Virus record (IMG/VR): IMGVR_UViG_3300042691_038096 | Coordinates: 1-64,000 of that record | Source of the DNA: a virus | Strand: one strand, 5' to 3' | DNA: 64,000 nt | Part shown: in pieces, positions 1 to 41,687 of the stretch | How positions within the stretch are numbered: position 1 is the first letter of the stretch | Layout of the letters: each line of letters starts with the position of its first letter | Notes under the pieces: generated by a model | What the model was told of the DNA's origin: nothing | The model's input: the letters and a program-made list of their open reading frames with translations, nothing else | Database searches by the model: none | Made by a program: the position numbers and the translations under genes

Positions 1-562
1 CCGTAGAGGGTCTAGCCTCAGCTAGCACTACCACCAGCCAGCCTTGCCCAAAAACACCCACTAGAGCTCCATAGCCTTCTACAGGTACTACTAGGGCTAT
101 TACCGCGCTACAGGCCTGTACAGGCTCTAGACCACCCGCTACGGGCTCTAGACATAGATAGTCTTGTATATAACGGTATGGACAGTCAGGGGTTAGTGGA
201 GTCCGTACCAGTCCCTCGGGTCTATTCGGAGTGGTCTAGCCGGTACCGGCGGTAGGGATTTGATCAACTAGTGGACATGCTAGTACAAGAGAAAGAGTAT
301 GAGAAGAGAACATTTCTCTCAAAATGTAATTTTCTCTTGCCTGCCAGATGTGGGTACCGGCCCATGGGCCTGTCCTGACTAGAAAATTTCCGGCCGGAAA
401 ATCAGGAGTGTCCGGAATGTGTGCTAGTTGACCAGGTCTATCCGGAGCACTTTTAGTCCTGAAAAAATTCCGGCCTGTAGAAACCGGGCCTGAAAAAAGG
501 TCTCTGGACCACTGAAACCAAAGTAGAGACCTGCAATATAATTACTATAAATCAATTAACAT
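1..562. other. Non-coding, palindrome- and CTAG-rich region
   Basis: I see no credible gene here. The stretch is visibly richer in G and C than the rest of the window. It holds about eleven CTAG tetramers, where roughly two would be expected by chance. It also has several long perfect palindromes: TACAGGCCTGTA at 109-120, GCCGGTACCGGC at 239-250, GGCCCATGGGCC at 359-370 and TTTCCGGCCGGAAA at 387-400. A near-identical 13-mer, GGTCTATYCGGAG, occurs at 219-231 and 435-447. It could be a control or replication-origin-like region, or the edge of a larger non-coding segment beginning before the window. The function is unknown. Confidence 0.6.
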
Positions 563-799
563 ATGCGTAACAACAACAATCGCCCGAGTAGCTACCAGAA
601 ACTAAGCTACATGCAAAAGCTCGTAAATTACAGTCAACGCAAGCGCCACGGAGATGTGACGACAATTGCTGACCGTACCGGTTACAGTACCACTCATGTA
701 AGTGATGTCCTTACCGGTAAGTATCAAAACGACAGGATCATGAATGCCGCTTATGACCGCGGTCGTGGCCGTCAGATTAATGTTGCCCTAATTGGCTAA
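563..799 (+). CDS. Small HTH DNA-binding protein
   Basis: A 78-residue basic protein. The central part (about residues 28-66) reads like a Cro/XRE-type helix-turn-helix: a first helix ending in IADRTGY, a turn, then a recognition-helix-like STTHVSDVLTGK. The ends are rich in Arg, Asn and Lys. It is the first gene after the palindrome-rich region and is followed directly by a strong terminator, so it is probably a single-gene transcript. It may be a transcriptional regulator acting on the palindromes upstream, but that is inference. The upstream DNA (530-560) is AT-rich. Confidence 0.65.
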   Translation: MRNNNNRPSSYQKLSYMQKLVNYSQRKRHGDVTTIADRTGYSTTHVSDVLTGKYQNDRIMNAAYDRGRGRQINVALIG

Positions 800-820
800 G
801 AGCGGCCAGGGTTACCACTG

Positions 821-859
821 GGAATCCAGAGACTACAGGTTTCTGGATTCCTTTTATTA
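821..859 (+). terminator. Rho-independent terminator
   Basis: A perfect 10-bp stem, GGAATCCAGA (821-830) with TCTGGATTCC (842-851), closes an 11-nt loop and is followed by TTTTATTATT. It ends the transcript of the HTH gene and separates it from the small-gene cluster downstream. Confidence 0.85.
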
Positions 860-870
860 TTAACAGGAAA

Positions 871-876
871 AAGGAG
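871..876 (+). promoter_or_regulatory. Strong Shine-Dalgarno site (unusual here)
   Basis: AAGGAG lies five bases before the ATG at 882. Most other start codons in the window have only an A-rich leader and no recognisable Shine-Dalgarno, so this site stands out. It also supports the 882 start. Confidence 0.6.
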
Positions 877-881
877 TAGAT

Positions 882-1046
882 ATGTTAAAATGGATATGGT
901 TTGTATTAGGAGGATTACTGGGTAGTCCACTGCTAGTATTTGGAGCTACCACTAGTCTGTTGCTCTGGGATAGCAGGTATTGGGATAACTGTTGCGAAGG
1001 AGTTTTTGATCTAGCACTCCGGTTACCTAAAGGAAAGTGGTCATGA
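882..1046 (+). CDS. Small membrane protein, 54 aa
   Basis: The protein begins MLKWIWFVLGGLLGSPLLVF, a single hydrophobic N-terminal segment of about 20 residues. A short tail follows with two adjacent cysteines (DNCCEG) and a basic end. The start is supported by the AAGGAG Shine-Dalgarno at 871-876. Its stop overlaps the next start (ATGA at 1043-1046), which indicates translational coupling. I do not recognise the family. A small inner-membrane protein made early in infection is a plausible guess from size and position. Confidence 0.6.
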   Translation: MLKWIWFVLGGLLGSPLLVFGATTSLLLWDSRYWDNCCEGVFDLALRLPKGKWS

Positions 1047-1162
1047 GCGATTGGCAAGGTAGGAGTAGAAAGCAGATTGAGGCTACTGAGCGGATTGTAT
1101 TCTGGTCTCTGGTTGCCTTAGCGATTATTATTATTGGAATATTTATAGAATCAAAGATATGA
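1043..1162 (+). CDS. Small membrane protein, 39 aa
   Basis: A 39-residue product with a basic N-terminus (SDWQGRSRKQIEATER) followed by one hydrophobic helix of about 18 residues (IVFWSLVALAIIIIGIF). It is joined to both neighbours by ATGA stop-start overlaps, at 1043-1046 and 1159-1162. That overlap pattern is the main support for such a short gene. The function is unknown. The layout suggests a small membrane-anchored protein of the same cluster. Confidence 0.5.
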   Translation: MSDWQGRSRKQIEATERIVFWSLVALAIIIIGIFIESKI

Positions 1163-1350
1163 AAAAGAAATGGATAAGTGGAGCTGCAGCTGGGATAAGC
1201 GCGCTCCTTGCAGTTGGGTACGGTGGACTGGCTTGGGTAGATGCCCAACTAGGTAGTACCGGATTCACGTTTTGGTTACACCTCACGTGTGGACTAGGTT
1301 GGACTCTAAATGCACTACTATGGATAAGTATATGGAAAAGAGAAGGCTAA
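1159..1350 (+). CDS. Small membrane protein, 63 aa
   Basis: Starts MKKKWISGAAAGISALLAVG, a basic tip followed by a hydrophobic segment, with a second hydrophobic stretch near residues 37-56, so two membrane helices are likely. A cleaved signal peptide is an alternative reading of the N-terminus. The start overlaps the previous stop (ATGA). No family is recognised. Confidence 0.55.
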   Translation: MKKKWISGAAAGISALLAVGYGGLAWVDAQLGSTGFTFWLHLTCGLGWTLNALLWISIWKREG

Positions 1351-1484
1351 AAGCTGGGGAGGCTATTCTACTTGGAGTTATGTGGACCTGGCTGGGTTTA
1401 ATTTGTGTGGCACTGGCAGGTAGCGTGGTACTGGCCGCTGCCCAGATCATGGGAATAAATCTTAACCTATCATGGCTTGGCTAA
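1320..1484 (+). CDS. Small membrane protein, 54 aa
   Basis: A basic N-terminus (DKYMEKRRLKAGEA) precedes two closely spaced hydrophobic segments (LLGVMWTWLGLICVALAG and VVLAAAQIM). I place the start at the ATG at 1320, overlapping the previous gene by 31 bases. The ATG at 1332 is equally possible, and an in-frame ATG at 1272 would give an unlikely 79-base overlap. The 3' end overlaps the next gene by 13 bases. The function is unknown. Confidence 0.5.
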   Translation: MDKYMEKRRLKAGEAILLGVMWTWLGLICVALAGSVVLAAAQIMGINLNLSWLG

Positions 1485-1678
1485 AGAGACTTTGGAATTG
1501 GTGGCGACTCCGCAAGGCAGTACGCCAATTTAAGGAGGATATGGATAGTGGAGTTTGGGGCGACCCCTATGATGGATGGTACCCAGACTATCCATTTACT
1601 GAGAGGCGAGTAGAAAAGAGAGGCAAGGGAGTAGTGGAACCGGCTCCAGACAAGCATGCGAGGGATGAAGAGGAATAG
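1472..1678 (+). CDS. Hypothetical protein, 68 aa, Trp/Arg rich
   Basis: The N-terminal 20 residues are rich in Trp, Arg and Leu (AWLKRLWNWWRLRKAV) and could form an amphipathic, membrane-associated helix. The rest is polar, with a Tyr/Trp/Pro patch (GWYPDYPF) and a charged, probably disordered tail. The start overlaps the previous gene by 13 bases. I do not recognise a family. Confidence 0.5.
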   Translation: MAWLKRLWNWWRLRKAVRQFKEDMDSGVWGDPYDGWYPDYPFTERRVEKRGKGVVEPAPDKHARDEEE

Positions 1679-1742
1679 AGGCTCTATGTGCTGCCAATGT
1701 GCGACTGCCACGGGAAAAATGTGCTACAGACTAAAAGACTAA
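1665..1742 (+). CDS. Possible 25-aa cysteine-rich peptide
   Basis: A 25-codon frame starts inside the end of the previous gene and stops three bases before the next one. Its product has four cysteines (CCQC and a later C) among basic residues. The tight fit between neighbours and the overlapping style of the cluster favour a real gene, but the length gives little statistical support. It may be chance. Confidence 0.25.
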   Translation: MKRNRGSMCCQCATATGKMCYRLKD

Positions 1743-1745
1743 AAG

Positions 1746-2036
1746 ATGAAACACGAAACTAAATACCGGATTATTAAACGCGAGTGGTTTAATGAACAGG
1801 CCCAAATTGAGATGGAGAGGTGGCTGGTACAAAGGGAGGTTAAACTACCTTTTGGACTAAGTTGGTGGAAGACCTTTAAACATGAAGTAATTTCAATAAG
1901 CGGCTTATCTTCTACTGCACTTACATTCAGAAGTTTTGGAGATGCCCATGCATTTGTTCATAGACTTAAAGCTGGTTATAAAATTAATAGAACCGTTGAT
2001 ACGGTAGATGCCGTATTAGAATTTGAAAAAGAATGA
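1746..2036 (+). CDS. Hypothetical protein, 96 aa
   Basis: A soluble, mixed-charge protein (MKHETKYRIIKREWFNEQAQ at the start) with no membrane segment. The middle has alternating beta-type residues (EVISISGLSSTALTFRSFGD) and the end is acidic. It is translationally coupled to the next gene by an ATGA overlap at 2033-2036. The family is not recognised. Confidence 0.6.
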   Translation: MKHETKYRIIKREWFNEQAQIEMERWLVQREVKLPFGLSWWKTFKHEVISISGLSSTALTFRSFGDAHAFVHRLKAGYKINRTVDTVDAVLEFEKE

Positions 2037-5685: not shown

Positions 5686-5758
5686 GCGGAAGTAGCTCAG
5701 TTGGTAGAGCGATAGCCTTCCAAGCTATAGGTCGCGAGTTCGAACCTCGTCTTCCGCT
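5686..5758 (+). tRNA. tRNA-Gly (UCC)
   Basis: Acceptor GCGGAAG with CTTCCGC (perfect), D stem GCTC/GAGC, anticodon arm ATAGC-CTTCCAA-GCTAT with anticodon TCC, and T arm CGAGG/GTTCGAAC-type. It reads GGA, a common glycine codon in these glycine-rich tail genes. No CCA is encoded. Confidence 0.95.
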
Positions 5759-5802
5759 CAATGGACATGGTGTCCAGATTAAAACAAAAAAAAACAAAAG
5801 CT

Positions 5803-5976
5803 ATGAAGAAATTCTTTGCAATCATGATCGCCGTTAGCGTATTCGCTTTGGCTTCATGCGGTGGTAACGCCGACACTGCTGTTTCTGGTGGAGCTGACTC
5901 AACTGCAGTTGATACAACTGCCGTTGTTGACACAACCGCTCTTGAAACCCCAGCTGATACAACTGCTACCAAGTAA
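5803..5976 (+). CDS. Small lipoprotein, 57 aa
   Basis: The ATG at 5803 gives a textbook lipoprotein signal: MKKFFAIMIAVSVFALASC, with lipobox LASC and the lipidated cysteine at residue 19. The upstream ATG at 5761 would destroy it. The mature part is a low-complexity string of Thr, Ala, Asp and Val (TAVDTTAVVDTTA) and is likely a disordered surface or periplasmic tether. Phage lipoproteins of this kind can block superinfection or disturb the host envelope, but the role here is inference. Confidence 0.75.
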   Translation: MKKFFAIMIAVSVFALASCGGNADTAVSGGADSTAVDTTAVVDTTALETPADTTATK

Positions 5977-5990
5977 TTGTATTAGTGTGC

Positions 5991-6059
5991 CATGTAAAGC
6001 CTCTTATGGGTAAGCCCATAATGTAACATGCCTCCGTAACCGAAAGGGTACGCCGGAGG
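5991..6059 (+). ncRNA. Structured non-coding RNA candidate
   Basis: Between the lipoprotein gene and the atypical tRNA the sequence folds into nested hairpins. An outer CATGT/ACATG (5991-5995 with 6026-6030) encloses a perfect 7-bp stem TTATGGG/CCCATAA (6004-6010 with 6015-6021). A second stem, CCTCCG/CGGAGG (6031-6036 with 6054-6059), carries an inner GAAA-capped helix. No protein frame fits. It sits in a tRNA cluster and could be a small RNA, a processing signal or a degenerate tRNA. Confidence 0.45.
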
Positions 6060-6064
6060 TTTAA

Positions 6065-6153
6065 GTGGGAGTAGCTCAGTGGCAGAGCAAGTTAGAAAGC
6101 TGGGACGCTGGCTTCTGACCGTGACGCGATAGGTTCGATCCCTGCCTCCCACT
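6065..6153 (+). tRNA. Atypical tRNA or tRNA-like element
   Basis: The acceptor is perfect (GTGGGAG with CTCCCAC), the D stem GCTC/GAGC is normal and the T loop TTCGATC is canonical. Between the D arm and T arm there are about 40 nt where a standard tRNA has about 23. The extra sequence forms its own hairpin (GTTAG/CTGAC with inner AAGC/GCTT). The only loop resembling an anticodon loop is CTTCTGA (TCT), which lacks a good stem and has G instead of A at position 37. It may be a tRNA with a 16-17 nt insertion, a pseudo-tRNA, or a tRNA mimic. Confidence 0.5.
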
Positions 6154-6167
6154 CTAATAAATATACC

Positions 6168-6368
6168 ATGATTATTATAAACAAAGAACATGGTGACTCA
6201 ATTGATCGTATGCTGAAAAGATACAAGAAAAAATCTATTCAGTATAAAGTCATTGATGAACTTAAAGAAAGGAAGACCTTTACTAAACCTTCTGTTAAGA
6301 AAAGAGAAAAGGTACTTAAGGCAATTTTTCGCCAAAAGGTTAAATCATCCAGAGAAAAAGATTCATAA
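6168..6368 (+). CDS. rpsU: Ribosomal protein bS21
   Basis: This 66-residue, strongly basic protein matches the bS21 pattern: a start of MIIINKEHGDSIDRMLKRYK, then F-TKPSVKKREKVLKAIFRQ in the middle, the family's hallmark KPSV..R region. bS21 belongs to the small ribosomal subunit near the 3' end of 16S rRNA. In Bacteroidota it is reported to help sequester the anti-Shine-Dalgarno. Phage-encoded bS21 is known from several environmental phages and probably replaces the host copy to favour viral mRNAs. It follows the tRNA cluster, which fits a translation-takeover role. Confidence 0.88.
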   Translation: MIIINKEHGDSIDRMLKRYKKKSIQYKVIDELKERKTFTKPSVKKREKVLKAIFRQKVKSSREKDS

Positions 6369-6428: not shown

Positions 6429-6899
6429 ATGAATAAACAAACTGTAATCTTTGATCTTGACGGTACTATTGCTGACATTGAAGATCGTCGTATATTATCT
6501 ACCAAGTCTGATGGTAAGATTAATTGGTCAAAGTTTTTTGATCCAGACTACATTTCATTGGATAAGCCTAACCTTCCTGTAATTGAATGTACACAGGGTC
6601 TTAAAAAATTAGGCTATACAATTTTAATCCTATCAGGTCGCAGTGAAGCAACTAAGGAAGCCACCATTGACTGGCTAAATACCAATGGTGTTTCTTTTGA
6701 TGAGATTCGTATGAGACCAACCGTTCACCCATTTCAATATATGCCGGATAATAAATTAAAGCAACTTTGGTTGGATGAAATGTTTCCTGGCAGTAAGAAG
6801 GAGTCAATCCTTTGCGTATTTGATGACCGCGATAAGGTGGTAAATATGTGGAGAGAAAACGGATTAATCTGTTTTCAGGTAGCACCCGGTAATTTCTAA
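6429..6899 (+). CDS. HAD phosphatase, PseT 3'-phosphatase-like
   Basis: A 156-residue HAD-superfamily protein with the nucleophile motif FDLDGT (D9, D11), a motif II Ser/Arg segment (ILSGRSEA) and a final block, FDDRDKVVNMWRENGL, very like the C-terminal phosphatase domain of T4 polynucleotide kinase. That domain removes 3' phosphates from RNA or DNA ends before ligation. The kinase half is missing, so only the phosphatase is present. It could act with the ligase-fold proteins elsewhere in the window. It lies between bS21 and the PspC-like gene. Confidence 0.8.
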   Translation: MNKQTVIFDLDGTIADIEDRRILSTKSDGKINWSKFFDPDYISLDKPNLPVIECTQGLKKLGYTILILSGRSEATKEATIDWLNTNGVSFDEIRMRPTVHPFQYMPDNKLKQLWLDEMFPGSKKESILCVFDDRDKVVNMWRENGLICFQVAPGNF

Positions 6900-6909
6900 A
6901 CAATCATAT

Positions 6910-7101
6910 ATGAATAAAAAGTTATACTTAGGCGATGGATATCTTGGTGGTGTATGCGCAGGGTTAGGTGAATGGTCAGGAATACCTCCTATCCTTTGGC
7001 GGATTGCATTTATCTTTATATTCCCTTATGCCTTTTGGATCTATTTAGTACTTTGGTTCTTTGTTAAATATAAGCCTAATGAAAATGAAAACAATCAATA
7101 A
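6910..7101 (+). CDS. PspC-domain membrane protein
   Basis: The 63 residues fit a minimal PspC domain: KKLYLGDGYLGGVCAGLGEW (basic start, GGVCAGL signature), then a hydrophobic helix pair (LWRIAFIFIFPYAFWIYLVLW) and a polar tail. PspC proteins are membrane components of the phage-shock response. A phage copy could protect the membrane or interfere with host stress signalling, which is inference. The 3' end overlaps the next gene. Confidence 0.75.
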   Translation: MNKKLYLGDGYLGGVCAGLGEWSGIPPILWRIAFIFIFPYAFWIYLVLWFFVKYKPNENENNQ

Positions 7102-7699
7102 AATCCTTTTTGGAACAAAACGTGCAATGTTATGCATCTATGATCGTGACCGATTAGTTCATTATCCAATCAGTAAGCTTAGACTTACATTTTTATCAAT
7201 CATAATTCTATCTGCGGTTTCATTTGCATCCGTGATCTATGGAAGATATACAGAGAAGGATAAAATGATTAAAGGGTTGACCGAATATGAAAAGCTTGTT
7301 ATTGTTAAACAGGCAGACCCTTTTAGTAAAGAAGCATTAGCTGCAATGTTAAAGGAGCTTAATGTAAAATATCCTCATATAGTTATGGCCCAGTCAATAA
7401 TTGAAACTGGCCGTTGGAGAAGTAAAGTCTTTTTAGAAAATAATAACCTCTTTGGAATGAAAGAAGCTAACCTAAGGGTTTCAACTTCTAAAGGTACGCA
7501 ATTAAATCATGCATACTATAATCATTGGAGAGAAAGTGTTTATGACTATGCCTTTTACCAATGTAGGTATTTAGGAGGAATTAATTCTGAGGCAGAGTAT
7601 TACCAATATCTTGATGGAAGCTACGCCGAAGCATCGGATTATGTAGCTGTCATCAAAAAGACGGTAGAAGCCGAAGGCTTAAAAGATCTCTTTAACTAA
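7079..7699 (+). CDS. Membrane-anchored GH73-like glucosaminidase
   Basis: I choose the ATG at 7079 (206 residues), which overlaps the PspC gene by 23 bases. One transmembrane helix is seen near residues 37-55. The C-terminal domain (about 80-206) matches GH73/FlgJ-type N-acetylglucosaminidases: AQSIIETGRWRS contains the catalytic Glu (E109), followed by NNLFGMK and a YDYAFYQCRYLGG segment. It cleaves peptidoglycan glycan strands. The N-terminal anchor suggests a signal-anchor-type endolysin acting in the periplasm. It is the only clear cell-wall hydrolase in the window. Confidence 0.75.
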   Translation: MKMKTINKILFGTKRAMLCIYDRDRLVHYPISKLRLTFLSIIILSAVSFASVIYGRYTEKDKMIKGLTEYEKLVIVKQADPFSKEALAAMLKELNVKYPHIVMAQSIIETGRWRSKVFLENNNLFGMKEANLRVSTSKGTQLNHAYYNHWRESVYDYAFYQCRYLGGINSEAEYYQYLDGSYAEASDYVAVIKKTVEAEGLKDLFN

Positions 7700-9865: not shown

Positions 9866-10202
9866 TTTAGTTGCTGCATTTTTACTTTTCTTTTTTGCAC
9901 AGGGTGTAATTTGGTTTCAGACCAATGGGCAATTCATTTGGCCTTGGTTTAAAGAACATCCGGTTATCGTTGCATTTACATTAGGAGGTTTTGCTGCTCT
10001 TATGTTCTTAACAGCTACACGTTATGTAGTAGATCATTTTAATGGCTTATTTTGGCCAGGTAGGTTTATCGCATTTGCTACTGGGATGTTGATCTTTGCT
10101 GTTTTAACTTACCTCTTTAGAGGTGAAGGCATGAATGCTAAGACTATAGTATCTTTGATACTTTCATTATGTATCATCTGCTTACAAATATTTTGGAAAT
10201 GA
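9858..10202 (+). CDS. Integral membrane protein, 114 aa
   Basis: The start at 9858 overlaps the previous gene by eight bases. I count four hydrophobic segments: about residues 2-22, 36-54, 68-88 and 94-112, with few charges between them. It is a polytopic inner-membrane protein of unknown function. A four-helix holin-type topology is possible, but the location between a methyltransferase and a DnaJ-like gene gives no support. Confidence 0.6.
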   Translation: MNNLVAAFLLFFFAQGVIWFQTNGQFIWPWFKEHPVIVAFTLGGFAALMFLTATRYVVDHFNGLFWPGRFIAFATGMLIFAVLTYLFRGEGMNAKTIVSLILSLCIICLQIFWK

Positions 10203-37829: not shown

Positions 37830-40800
37830 ATGGCTGAACAAAATTCAATATCAACTTTATTACCTGAACTTTTAAGACTCTTTAACAATTCGTTAGAGAG
37901 CTTTGAGAGAGTGAATCAGGCAATCACATCAAGCCAAGAGTCAGTTACTATAAACATTCAAAATGAGGACGGTACATTATCTCGTTTAACAATACCGTCT
38001 TTTGGATTCTTAAAGAACTCAATTACCAGACTAGATAATAACATTAACACTATAACCAATGTTGGAGGTGGATCTAGTTCGGTTAGACTTGCAGATGGTA
38101 CTTTTAGAAAATTGGTATTGGCAAAATTGCCATCCGAGGCTCCTAACCTAACATCTATAAATTCAGTAAATCAATTTAACATAAAGCCTAACTGGTTTTT
38201 TGAAGAGTTAATTAATCCTCTTCTCTATATTTCATTTGATTTAACTGGTCAGGTTCCTATTGATACAGAGAAGGCAATTATTCAAAGATACATTTTAGAT
38301 ACTAATACTCAGGCTAAAATACAGTTCTTTGAAAATAATTACAATGGAAGATCTGATGTAAATTACTTTACATTTCTTCAACAAATTGTTGAAAGAAACA
38401 TTGCTTATGTATTAGATGAAGCCGTAGTTGATCTTCCTCCAAGGAATAAAAGATATAGCGGAAACTTTAGTGTTACTAGGATATCGGATATTAATTTTAC
38501 AGAGGAGATTAATGGTGTTTCTGTCACATCTCAGAAGAAATCATATAAGTTAAATAAGTTACTATATACAGATACTTTGGCTGACTTCGATGACACGATA
38601 CAGCTAAAAGTAGGTGATAGTTTAGAGGTTGTTTCTAACCCTGTTGATACTCGATACATTGTTAAGAGTGTTGATTCTAGCACAAATTCAGTTATCCTTG
38701 ATTTAGTAGAAGGTACTAAACCTATTCAAATTGGAGCTGATGTTCTTAAGATAGGTTCTGGTATTAACGATAATGTTCAAGTGGATGTTACAGTAGGCTT
38801 TAACGAGCGTTGTGTAGTATTCATTAAGCCGATTGATCCAGATTCTAAGATTCCTTCAATTAATTGGTCACCCGGTGCAGGTTTTTATACGAACACATTG
38901 ACTACTATTGCTTCTGATGGTACACAGCAAACATTAGCTGACTATTATCAAAAGTATGCTGTTGATTTTGGTAAGTTTCTATTATCATTCGCTCAGGATA
39001 AATTGCCAACAACAAGAGAAGGATTAATTCCTAATGCACCTGCATTAGCTGCATCTGACTTTAAGGTTAAACTGGTAAATGGTCAAGTTACAAATGCTGA
39101 TGCAGTTGTACAATTACAAGATCTTAATAATCAAAAGAATACATTAACATCAAGTCTAAAAGAATTAGATACTGCAATTTCACAGTATAGAACAAAGATT
39201 CAGACTACAAATTATAGTACTGATGTTGAAAGAGATGCTGATAAGAATGCTTTGCAAGGTCTTATCACAGATAGAAGTACTCAGGCTGAATTATATGCTT
39301 CTATTGTAAAAGAGATAGATGCAAATAGTAAAGATAATTCTGTTGCAAGTATAACTCCTAAATATAGAGTAAGAGGATTCTGGGCAATGCCTGCAGAAAA
39401 ATCTACACCAGCAACTGGCCCACAGGCAATTGTTAAGTTTAAGATTAGATATAGATATCTTTCTCAAGATGGCGCAGCCAACCCAGTTGATCAATTTACA
39501 TTTGTTGATGGAAACGGTACCAGTCAAGGTGCATTTTCAAACTATGAAATAATTGACAGTGTATTACGTCCTAGATCAAAGAATCCAATTACTGGTCTTT
39601 ATCAATGGGATACTATTAATAATGATAATGCTGACGCTGTAAATATTAATCAACTTGATATCCCTATTAGAAAAGGAGAAATTGTTGAAGTTCAGGTTAA
39701 GTCAATATCTGAAGCAGGTTGGCCATCTAATCCTTTGGAGAGTGATTGGTCAGATGCAGTTAGAATTGAATTTCCAGCAGACTTAAGTTCTGATAGTGCG
39801 GTAGAATCAATTCTTAATCAAAATAAACAAGACATTGCAAAAGTAAGTCTTGAAGAAAGTCTTAGAGCAAAAGGTATTGATCAACACTTAAGTAGTTCAT
39901 TTACCGCAAACGAAAGATACTATGCTCACTCTGCTAGTGTAATTGCTTCCGGATTCTTATCTGAAAGTCAAACACCAGTTGACTTATTCTCTAAGTTGGT
40001 AGAAATGCAGGCAAGACTTGATGAGTTTTCTGAAATACTTAGAAATGCTGCAGGCGAATTGGTTGTTACTCTGATTGATGATCAAGGTAATACAATTAAC
40101 ATTAAGCGTAATTCATCAACCAAGGTTTTTGCTGGATTCTACTTTAATGAAGTTAAGGACTTGGATGATCCACGCGGCGCTATCGTTACAAAAACTTTCT
40201 TTATTAATTTATCTAATGCTGAACAAACAGGATTAAGATTAATTGCAAGGATTACTGGTTCTAGAACTCGAATGGTTAAGGAATCTGAAAATCCTGGTTA
40301 TACTAATTCTGAGGCTGCAAATGGATCTGTTATTTTACCTGCAACATATTCTTGGTTAGATAACAGTTCAATAAACCAAAGTACAAATAGAGCTACATTT
40401 GAAACTACTGATAGTGATTATAACACAATTCGTAAATATGATCTTGTTCCGATTGTATTAAGTAATCCATCTGTAACTTCTACTAATAAGTACGGTCAGG
40501 ATGTATCTTTATCACCATTTCAGTCTGCACAGAATAAGAACCAATTTATTTACTCAAGATTTAAAGATGTTTCATCTGAGGAAACTTTTTACAGTTATAT
40601 AAATCCTAATGATGGTTATACATTTAACCTAGATACTTGTGAAAACTTTTTCCTTAAAGATAACTTTTCATCAACAGTAACGGCTGGGCAATTTATCTGG
40701 GGCGGTGGCTTTGATGCATCGGGTAATCCTACTACAGCTGGATCATATGATTTACCACAGGGTGATAATAGTATAGAGGTACATATTAATCATCCTTGGG

Positions 40801-41687
40801 TTGCTTCTTATGCTGCATATAGAGCTGCATACATTTATGCAACTGGTGATACTGCTACTTTACCTGCTACATTAACCGGTGCAATAGATTGTACTGCACC
40901 TACAGGTAACGGTACTGCTAGAGTTTTATTTAGACATTCTAAATTTATTCCTCTTGCATCAGATCAATTAAACGGTAAGCAACAGTCAATATATCTTAAC
41001 GAAAATGTATCTGACCTGGTTACTCTATCTTCTACATTGATTAGTTTTAATACAGGACAAACTCTTCAAGCTAGTCCAACGTTAACATTTATACCTGCAT
41101 TAAGTAACCCAGCAAACCCTAACTTTGTTGATTATTCAAGAAATGTAAAAACTTCATTTGATACATTTGATCAATACTTATTAGGAAAGCAATCGTGTGG
41201 ATCTTATTTATTCATATCAGCAGATGATCATGAAATGATTCAGGTAGATGGAGATTCTGTATTATCTAGTAAGGTTATACAATTTGGAAGTCAAAATTCC
41301 ATAAACATTCCGATGGTATTCCAATATAGAATGACTGATTACTTTGGAACAGGTTCTGGTTCTACTGGAGGTTTAGGAAACATTGCTGGCGATTCTACTG
41401 GTGCAATTACTAATTTAACATATGCAAAGAAGATTGGATTTGATATTTGGCCAAATGCTGATAATGTTTATCAATATGACATTGAAGTATTTGCGAAATA
41501 TAAATCTGACAATCTTAACGTAGACGTATTCCCATCTGTATCCGTTACAAAAGGACTTGGTGATTTGGAAAAAGTTATATCTCAACTTAGACCAAGTGTA
41601 GTAGAAACTAAGGTTAATAAAACCGTTAAGTCCGGTGGAGTTATTCAAGATGGTTTAACTAGAGGATCTGGACTACAAGATTTCTAA
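37830..41687 (+). CDS. Large structural protein, 1285 aa, with FN3-like domain
   Basis: A helical N-terminus (about 1-80) leads to a long beta-rich body. Residues about 395-480 are helical and coiled-coil-like (LQDLNNQKNTLTSSLKELDT). Around 510-650 a fibronectin-III-like module is visible (KYRVRGFWAMPAEKS, then VEVQVKSISEAGWPSNPL). The distal parts are beta-rich. The overall layout fits a long side-tail-fibre or baseplate spanner. The next gene starts 64 bases downstream with its own promoter-like box. Confidence 0.6.
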   Translation: MAEQNSISTLLPELLRLFNNSLESFERVNQAITSSQESVTINIQNEDGTLSRLTIPSFGFLKNSITRLDNNINTITNVGGGSSSVRLADGTFRKLVLAKLPSEAPNLTSINSVNQFNIKPNWFFEELINPLLYISFDLTGQVPIDTEKAIIQRYILDTNTQAKIQFFENNYNGRSDVNYFTFLQQIVERNIAYVLDEAVVDLPPRNKRYSGNFSVTRISDINFTEEINGVSVTSQKKSYKLNKLLYTDTLADFDDTIQLKVGDSLEVVSNPVDTRYIVKSVDSSTNSVILDLVEGTKPIQIGADVLKIGSGINDNVQVDVTVGFNERCVVFIKPIDPDSKIPSINWSPGAGFYTNTLTTIASDGTQQTLADYYQKYAVDFGKFLLSFAQDKLPTTREGLIPNAPALAASDFKVKLVNGQVTNADAVVQLQDLNNQKNTLTSSLKELDTAISQYRTKIQTTNYSTDVERDADKNALQGLITDRSTQAELYASIVKEIDANSKDNSVASITPKYRVRGFWAMPAEKSTPATGPQAIVKFKIRYRYLSQDGAANPVDQFTFVDGNGTSQGAFSNYEIIDSVLRPRSKNPITGLYQWDTINNDNADAVNINQLDIPIRKGEIVEVQVKSISEAGWPSNPLESDWSDAVRIEFPADLSSDSAVESILNQNKQDIAKVSLEESLRAKGIDQHLSSSFTANERYYAHSASVIASGFLSESQTPVDLFSKLVEMQARLDEFSEILRNAAGELVVTLIDDQGNTINIKRNSSTKVFAGFYFNEVKDLDDPRGAIVTKTFFINLSNAEQTGLRLIARITGSRTRMVKESENPGYTNSEAANGSVILPATYSWLDNSSINQSTNRATFETTDSDYNTIRKYDLVPIVLSNPSVTSTNKYGQDVSLSPFQSAQNKNQFIYSRFKDVSSEETFYSYINPNDGYTFNLDTCENFFLKDNFSSTVTAGQFIWGGGFDASGNPTTAGSYDLPQGDNSIEVHINHPWVASYAAYRAAYIYATGDTATLPATLTGAIDCTAPTGNGTARVLFRHSKFIPLASDQLNGKQQSIYLNENVSDLVTLSSTLISFNTGQTLQASPTLTFIPALSNPANPNFVDYSRNVKTSFDTFDQYLLGKQSCGSYLFISADDHEMIQVDGDSVLSSKVIQFGSQNSINIPMVFQYRMTDYFGTGSGSTGGLGNIAGDSTGAITNLTYAKKIGFDIWPNADNVYQYDIEVFAKYKSDNLNVDVFPSVSVTKGLGDLEKVISQLRPSVVETKVNKTVKSGGVIQDGLTRGSGLQDF

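Follow-up and report, generated by a model that had tools for sequence, protein, structure and literature searches.

Among the ribosomal proteins encoded by viruses, bS21 is the commonest, with most examples coming from aquatic samples (PMC6375957). One example is that of the pelagiphage HTVC008M, which, like the protein described here, is phage-encoded and which has been shown to enter E. coli ribosomes (PMC6375957). Also reported are Bacteroidetes jumbo phages carrying bS21, together with a model for ribosome hijacking and with evidence that the phage bS21 gene is transcribed with the late structural genes (PMC9723584). Both the existence of bS21-bearing Bacteroidetes phages and the hijacking idea have therefore been described already (Mizuno 2019; Chen 2022; McNutt 2023; PMC9723584, PMC6375957, PMC7162821).

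On the host side, bS21 of the Bacteroidia helps to hold the anti-Shine–Dalgarno (anti-SD) sequence, and in Flavobacterium johnsoniae Tyr54 of bS21 stacks on A1534 (PMC9976891). An earlier sequence-only reading of the present locus had stated that Bacteroidota bS21 helps to hide the anti-SD, and for the Bacteroidia this is right according to the same study. The F. johnsoniae protein also regulates its own synthesis through an extended SD, a form of autoregulation known for rpsU genes of the Flavobacteriales (PMC9976891). Comparing phage and host proteins, Chen et al. found divergence in a region that includes residues ~21–28 (PMC9723584).

The bS21 gene and its virus

The window analysed here comprises 64,000 nucleotides, the first part of a virus record of 64,998 bases that represents a viral fragment. 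Profile matches identify T4-type baseplate-wedge and head–tail adaptor genes in the record, and the window also encodes DnaJ (10199), an ATP-dependent DNA ligase and DNA helicases. A large tail-region protein (37830–41687) has relatives in phages of Tenacibaculum, Chryseobacterium, Flavobacterium and Prevotella; others are encoded by Sphingomonas phage PAU and by uncultured phages 462–735 kb in size. Since the cultured relatives of this protein mostly infect Bacteroidota, the host is likely to belong to the Bacteroidota, an assignment no finer than phylum. The first part of the window (1–2000) is richer in G+C (46%) than the remainder (33–38%); a chimeric contig was considered and rejected, as two near strains (L001 and L002) are colinear with the window from position 1.

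The features of the bS21 region are as follows.

5686–5759, plus strand: tRNA-Gly(TCC), found by ARAGORN (Rfam 74.6 bits), in the same tRNA cluster
5987–6059, plus strand: structured RNA element of ~73 nt, supported by covariation, upstream of the tRNA-like RNA, no Rfam family
6065–6153, plus strand: tRNA-like RNA (Rfam tRNA 30.0 bits; covariation)
6154–6167, plus strand: A/T-rich leader of 14 nt without an SD, between the tRNA-like RNA and the bS21 ATG
6168–6368, plus strand: phage bS21 gene with ATG start, 66 amino acids, Phe54 (PF01165, TIGR00030, F. johnsoniae match, dN/dS)
6429–6899, plus strand: PNKP-type 3′-phosphatase domain gene (PF25109, E 5e-27), the downstream syntenic neighbour of bS21

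The product of 6168–6368 matches the Pfam model PF01165 (Ribosomal_S21; E 5.2e-9, 36.1 bits against a curated cut-off of 27, model positions 6–53 of 55), the NCBIfam/TIGRFAM model TIGR00030 (S21p; E 3.7e-9, 36.3 bits against a curated cut-off of 28.95) and the PHROG family ‘ribosomal protein S21’ (E 1.1e-5). Its top PDB match is F. johnsoniae bS21 (7jil; E 3.4e-10), to which residues 1–63 align without gaps. Scores over the curated cut-offs across most of the model confirm, at the level of sequence, that this ORF encodes bS21. The original description of a phage-encoded bS21 with a KPSV..R core and a basic composition was thus well founded: K40-P-S-V-x-x-R46 is present, the protein is very basic and the ORF lies in a virus record with T4-type genes.

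In common with the bS21 of F. johnsoniae (7jil) and other Bacteroidia, the window protein falls in the same length class, aligns over 63 residues without gaps and possesses the KPSV core and an aromatic residue at position 54; it differs from the F. johnsoniae protein in having Phe54 rather than Tyr54, a changed segment at 21–28 and no extended SD before its gene. In a phylogeny of 123 bS21 sequences from phages and bacteria, built on 64 columns and with its deep forks weakly resolved, the clade formed by the window and two relatives (L003 and L016) falls on the side with flavobacterial and other phage sequences, and the protein appears to group with Bacteroidia and Bacteroidetes-phage bS21 within the limits of those forks.

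Position 54 was examined more widely, in bacterial and phage comparison sets chosen by similarity rather than at random. Among 90 phage bS21 sequences the residue is Tyr in 84, Phe in five and His in one, all counted as aromatic. In the bacterial sample the Bacteroidia-like sequences have Tyr or, once, His, and a further 33 sequences have Arg. The Phe of the window is therefore aromatic, yet it is not the Tyr conserved in the Bacteroidia. It is shared with L003 and L016 whereas the syntenic marine relatives have Tyr, which indicates that Phe54 is derived in this sub-lineage; two further phage sequences (L077 and L078) acquired Phe54 independently. A single instance of Phe54 was recorded by Chen et al., in whose view the aromatic ring is sufficient (PMC9723584), and Phe54 of the window protein may work like Tyr.

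The near strains L001 and L002 are ~97.6% identical to the window in DNA and encode an identical bS21 protein, with only synonymous changes separating the L001 gene from that of the window. Against L003 and L016 the dN/dS ratio is 0.11–0.15, pointing to purifying selection on the phage gene. The gene order coiled-coil gene, tRNA, bS21, PNKP, PspC, glucosaminidase, DnaJ, ligase is found again, in places incomplete, in the phage contigs L020–L027 and L033, whose bS21 proteins are 48–54% identical to that of the window (48–52% for the marine contigs), and the PNKP domain gene adjoins bS21 in 11 of the 11 syntenic relatives examined. Directly behind the PNKP gene lie a PspC-domain membrane protein (6910–7101) and a glucosaminidase (7082–7699), both syntenic across the phage group. 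Taken together, synteny and selection identify bS21 as an old part of the locus and not a chance ORF. No PF01165 match was detected in the cultured tail-region relatives pT24, MA9V-2, MaF61 and PAU or in the 462-kb phage LR756500, and the protein is thus not essential in the wider group.

How does this locus compare with those of other phages? The bS21 proteins of clades a–e of Chen et al. 2022 likewise belong to the Bacteroidetes type and are aromatic at position 54, but their genes lie on the reverse strand inside a terminase/capsid module (PMC9723584). The window gene, in contrast, shares the strand of its neighbours and belongs to a tRNA cluster, with the PNKP, PspC and glucosaminidase genes close by; no capsid or terminase gene was found near it. 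The best bS21 matches among phage records, at 37–49% identity, are in four phages of 634–735 kb (LR745206, LR756501, LR756502 and LR756504) that, judged by their size and the study they come from, are likely to belong to the Mahaphage clade (PMC7162821). These differ from the window in having Tyr54 and in having no tRNA in the 8-kb flanks of bS21, and the 735-kb phage (L011) has an extended SD, AAAGGAGG, before bS21 where the window has none. In the two phages of 634–642 kb, a J-domain coding stretch, a relative of the DnaJ gene at 10199 in the window, is seen ~0.5 kb behind bS21, within 0.6 kb (L008 8645–8857; L009 8700–8909).

Initiation signals before bS21 and other phage genes

SD cores, counted as GGAG, GAGG or AGGA, precede three of the 74 window genes, compared to 2.9 expected from shuffled upstream sequence, bearing out the previous claim that Shine–Dalgarno sequences are nearly absent from the window. 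Automatic gene lists give a similar picture for the window (1/60 against 3.0 shuffled), for its syntenic relatives (4/138 against 6.4) and for 70 other phage loci with bS21 (13/593 against 25.1). The regions upstream of the window genes are A-rich. With SD cores at or below the shuffled expectation and A-rich upstream regions, the phage appears to initiate translation as its likely hosts do.

The strongest SD in the window, AAGGAG, lies before the gene at 882, which the sequence-only reading had offered as a possible reporter of altered initiation. The site is indeed present, but its value as a reporter does not survive closer inspection: the chance of at least one site as strong among 74 genes is P ~0.26, the 97.6% identical strain L001 has AAAGAG instead (weakening the duplex from −9.2 to −5.0 kcal/mol) and the gene itself is absent from the 78% relative L003. 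The broader suggestion that replacement of bS21 redirects initiation via SD sites is not supported either, given that the phage genes show no SD excess, that those of relatives fall below the shuffled level, that Phe54 is aromatic and that the 882 site is not conserved.

The bS21 gene itself has no match to the 16S tail between −20 and −4, and the predicted duplex of its leader with that tail has an energy of +2.0 kcal/mol, compared with −19.3 kcal/mol for a flavobacterial rpsU. By this measure the gene lacks the extended SD of autoregulated flavobacterial rpsU. The ten nearest bacterial rpsU genes, which are flavobacterial, all have SD matches of 7–11 nt, whereas in 60 of 68 distinct phage bS21 genes the match is 4 nt or less, in comparison sets likewise chosen by similarity. 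SD-looking matches of 4 to 8 nt are found before bS21 in L005, L011/L052 (the 735-kb phage and a relative), L030, L032 and L091, and the other genes of these loci show no SD excess, so that an SD at bS21 alone resembles, by analogy, the single-gene autoregulatory SD of the host. The minority of phage bS21 genes with an SD (L005/L028 also among them), reaching the extended form seen in the 735-kb phage, look as though they had retained the autoregulatory signal of the host. An SD is also missing from several rpsU genes of Bacteroidota sampled beyond the flavobacterial group, which makes it uncertain that the phage has lost one.

A bS21 gene behind tRNAs and structured RNAs

In the window, L001 and L016, bS21 starts ~14 nt behind the tRNA-like RNA, and in L003 the distance is 2 nt. 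In L020–L023, L025–L027 and L033 the gene starts 13–16 nt behind a tRNA-Gln or tRNA-Pro instead (the sequence around bS21 in L025 and L026 being the same as in L023), whilst L024 has no tRNA adjacent to bS21. The identity of the tRNA thus varies across the phage group and the adjacency is kept. What is new here is the placement of bS21 close behind either a tRNA or a tRNA-like RNA that covariation supports, in a group of phages whose gene is without the extended SD of flavobacterial rpsU; the literature that we searched, with incomplete coverage, held no report of a tRNA-linked phage bS21.

In the tRNA-like RNA the acceptor, D and T arms are normal, whereas the place of the anticodon arm is taken by a 12-bp arm that ends in a GACG loop. 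Its Rfam tRNA score is just above the gathering threshold of 29 bits, it was not detected by ARAGORN, and four pairs are changed on both sides among three sequences only. RNAs of this kind without an anticodon loop are also found at L003 9910–9998 and, on the minus strand, L016 7241–7327.

In the ~73-nt element upstream, five pairs have changed on either side across five distinct sequences. Copies occur at L003 9832–9904, L015 9713–9779 and L018 9921–9987 and, on the minus strand, at L016 7333–7405, L017 8105–8171 and L019 8546–8612; all are in phage tRNA clusters or arrays, and each is closely followed by a tRNA or tRNA-like RNA. The window copy matches no Rfam family at gathering or relaxed threshold and its relatives match none at gathering, and neither the element nor the tRNA-like RNA has a blastn match in annotated phage records. 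Thermodynamic stability alone is weak evidence (z −1.3 to −1.8) and it is covariation that carries the case; the element is possibly a new phage RNA family. Two of the contigs with the element also carry GOLLD RNA. Between the tRNA-Gly and the element lies a small putative lipoprotein gene (5803–5976) whose product is 89–93% identical in L003 and L016, exceeding the conservation of its neighbours.

The tRNAs that precede bS21 do not encode CCA, and cleavage at their 3′ ends would therefore leave a short, SD-less bS21 message. We tentatively suggest, as an idea with less in its favour than against it, that bS21 forms the downstream part of a tRNA–mRNA transcript and that tRNA 3′ cleavage makes such a message, tying bS21 synthesis to tRNA processing and freeing it from host SD autoregulation. 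In the window sub-lineage the RNA cleaved would be the tRNA-like RNA, which has no anticodon loop and would be dedicated to this purpose.

What phage bS21 may do in the infected cell

In Bacteroidota the bS21 of the host hides the anti-SD and also controls its own synthesis by means of it. The account that we favour, and hold to be somewhat more probable than all others combined, is that the phage gene encodes a functional Bacteroidia-type bS21, made in infection, that joins the host 30S subunit and keeps SD-less initiation going outside rpsU autoregulation. The protein would most likely be made from a transcript running through the tRNA cluster and would join host 30S subunits, replacing or supplementing host bS21. 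There it would keep the 16S rRNA 3′ tail out of the way, and the SD-less initiation common to host and phage would thereby continue. With no SD of its own, the gene would be translated independently of the bS21-free ribosomes that drive flavobacterial rpsU autoregulation, so that bS21 could come from the phage at times when the host supplies none. Through SD-less, tRNA-coupled expression, phage bS21 would escape host autoregulation. Expression, incorporation into ribosomes, processing of the tRNA 3′ end and benefit to the phage are steps that we infer from the sequence. Counting against this account are rpsU genes without an SD among the sampled Bacteroidota, relatives without bS21, and the inhibition of E. 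coli ribosomes by pelagiphage bS21 (PMC6375957).

A second reading, which we consider distinctly less likely, is that phage bS21 replaces that of the host and the resulting ribosomes favour phage messages, via the diverged N-terminal half of the protein or via altered handling of the anti-SD. Besides having been published (PMC9723584, PMC7162821), this hypothesis can draw on two differences from the F. johnsoniae protein: a changed segment around residues 21–28, where Chen et al. saw phage and host sequences diverge, and the replacement of Tyr54 by Phe, which is confined to the window sub-lineage. Yet the residue at the stacking site is still aromatic, the one strong SD lacks conservation and we found no feature separating phage starts from Bacteroidota starts, both being A-rich and SD-less. 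Preferential translation of viral messages may occur, by this or another route, but draws no support from the sequence.

Inhibition of host translation by phage bS21 competing for host subunits is an improbable third reading, suggested by analogy with the ~5% activity left to E. coli ribosomes that contain pelagiphage bS21, where translation was inhibited (PMC6375957). That test used a foreign host, however, and as the phage genes are SD-less like those of the likely hosts, a general block would hit the phage too. The bS21 of HTVC008M is of alphaproteobacterial type, and its host phylum is not known to hide the anti-SD. Least probable of all, if by little, is that the protein acts outside the ribosome or that the gene is a passenger taken up together with the tRNA cluster. 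Although bS21 has been reported in the non-ribosomal RNA–protein complex OLE (PMC12054373) and a structured RNA lies directly upstream of the window gene, purifying selection, family-level conservation and synteny all speak against this reading.

Returning to the maintenance of SD-less initiation, phage bS21 keeps the aromatic type of residue that in the host helps to hide the anti-SD, most copies are without the autoregulatory SD of the host and one group of phages places the gene behind a tRNA or tRNA-like RNA. Taken together, these features speak for phage bS21 maintaining SD-less translation in the infected cell over a switch to SD-led initiation.
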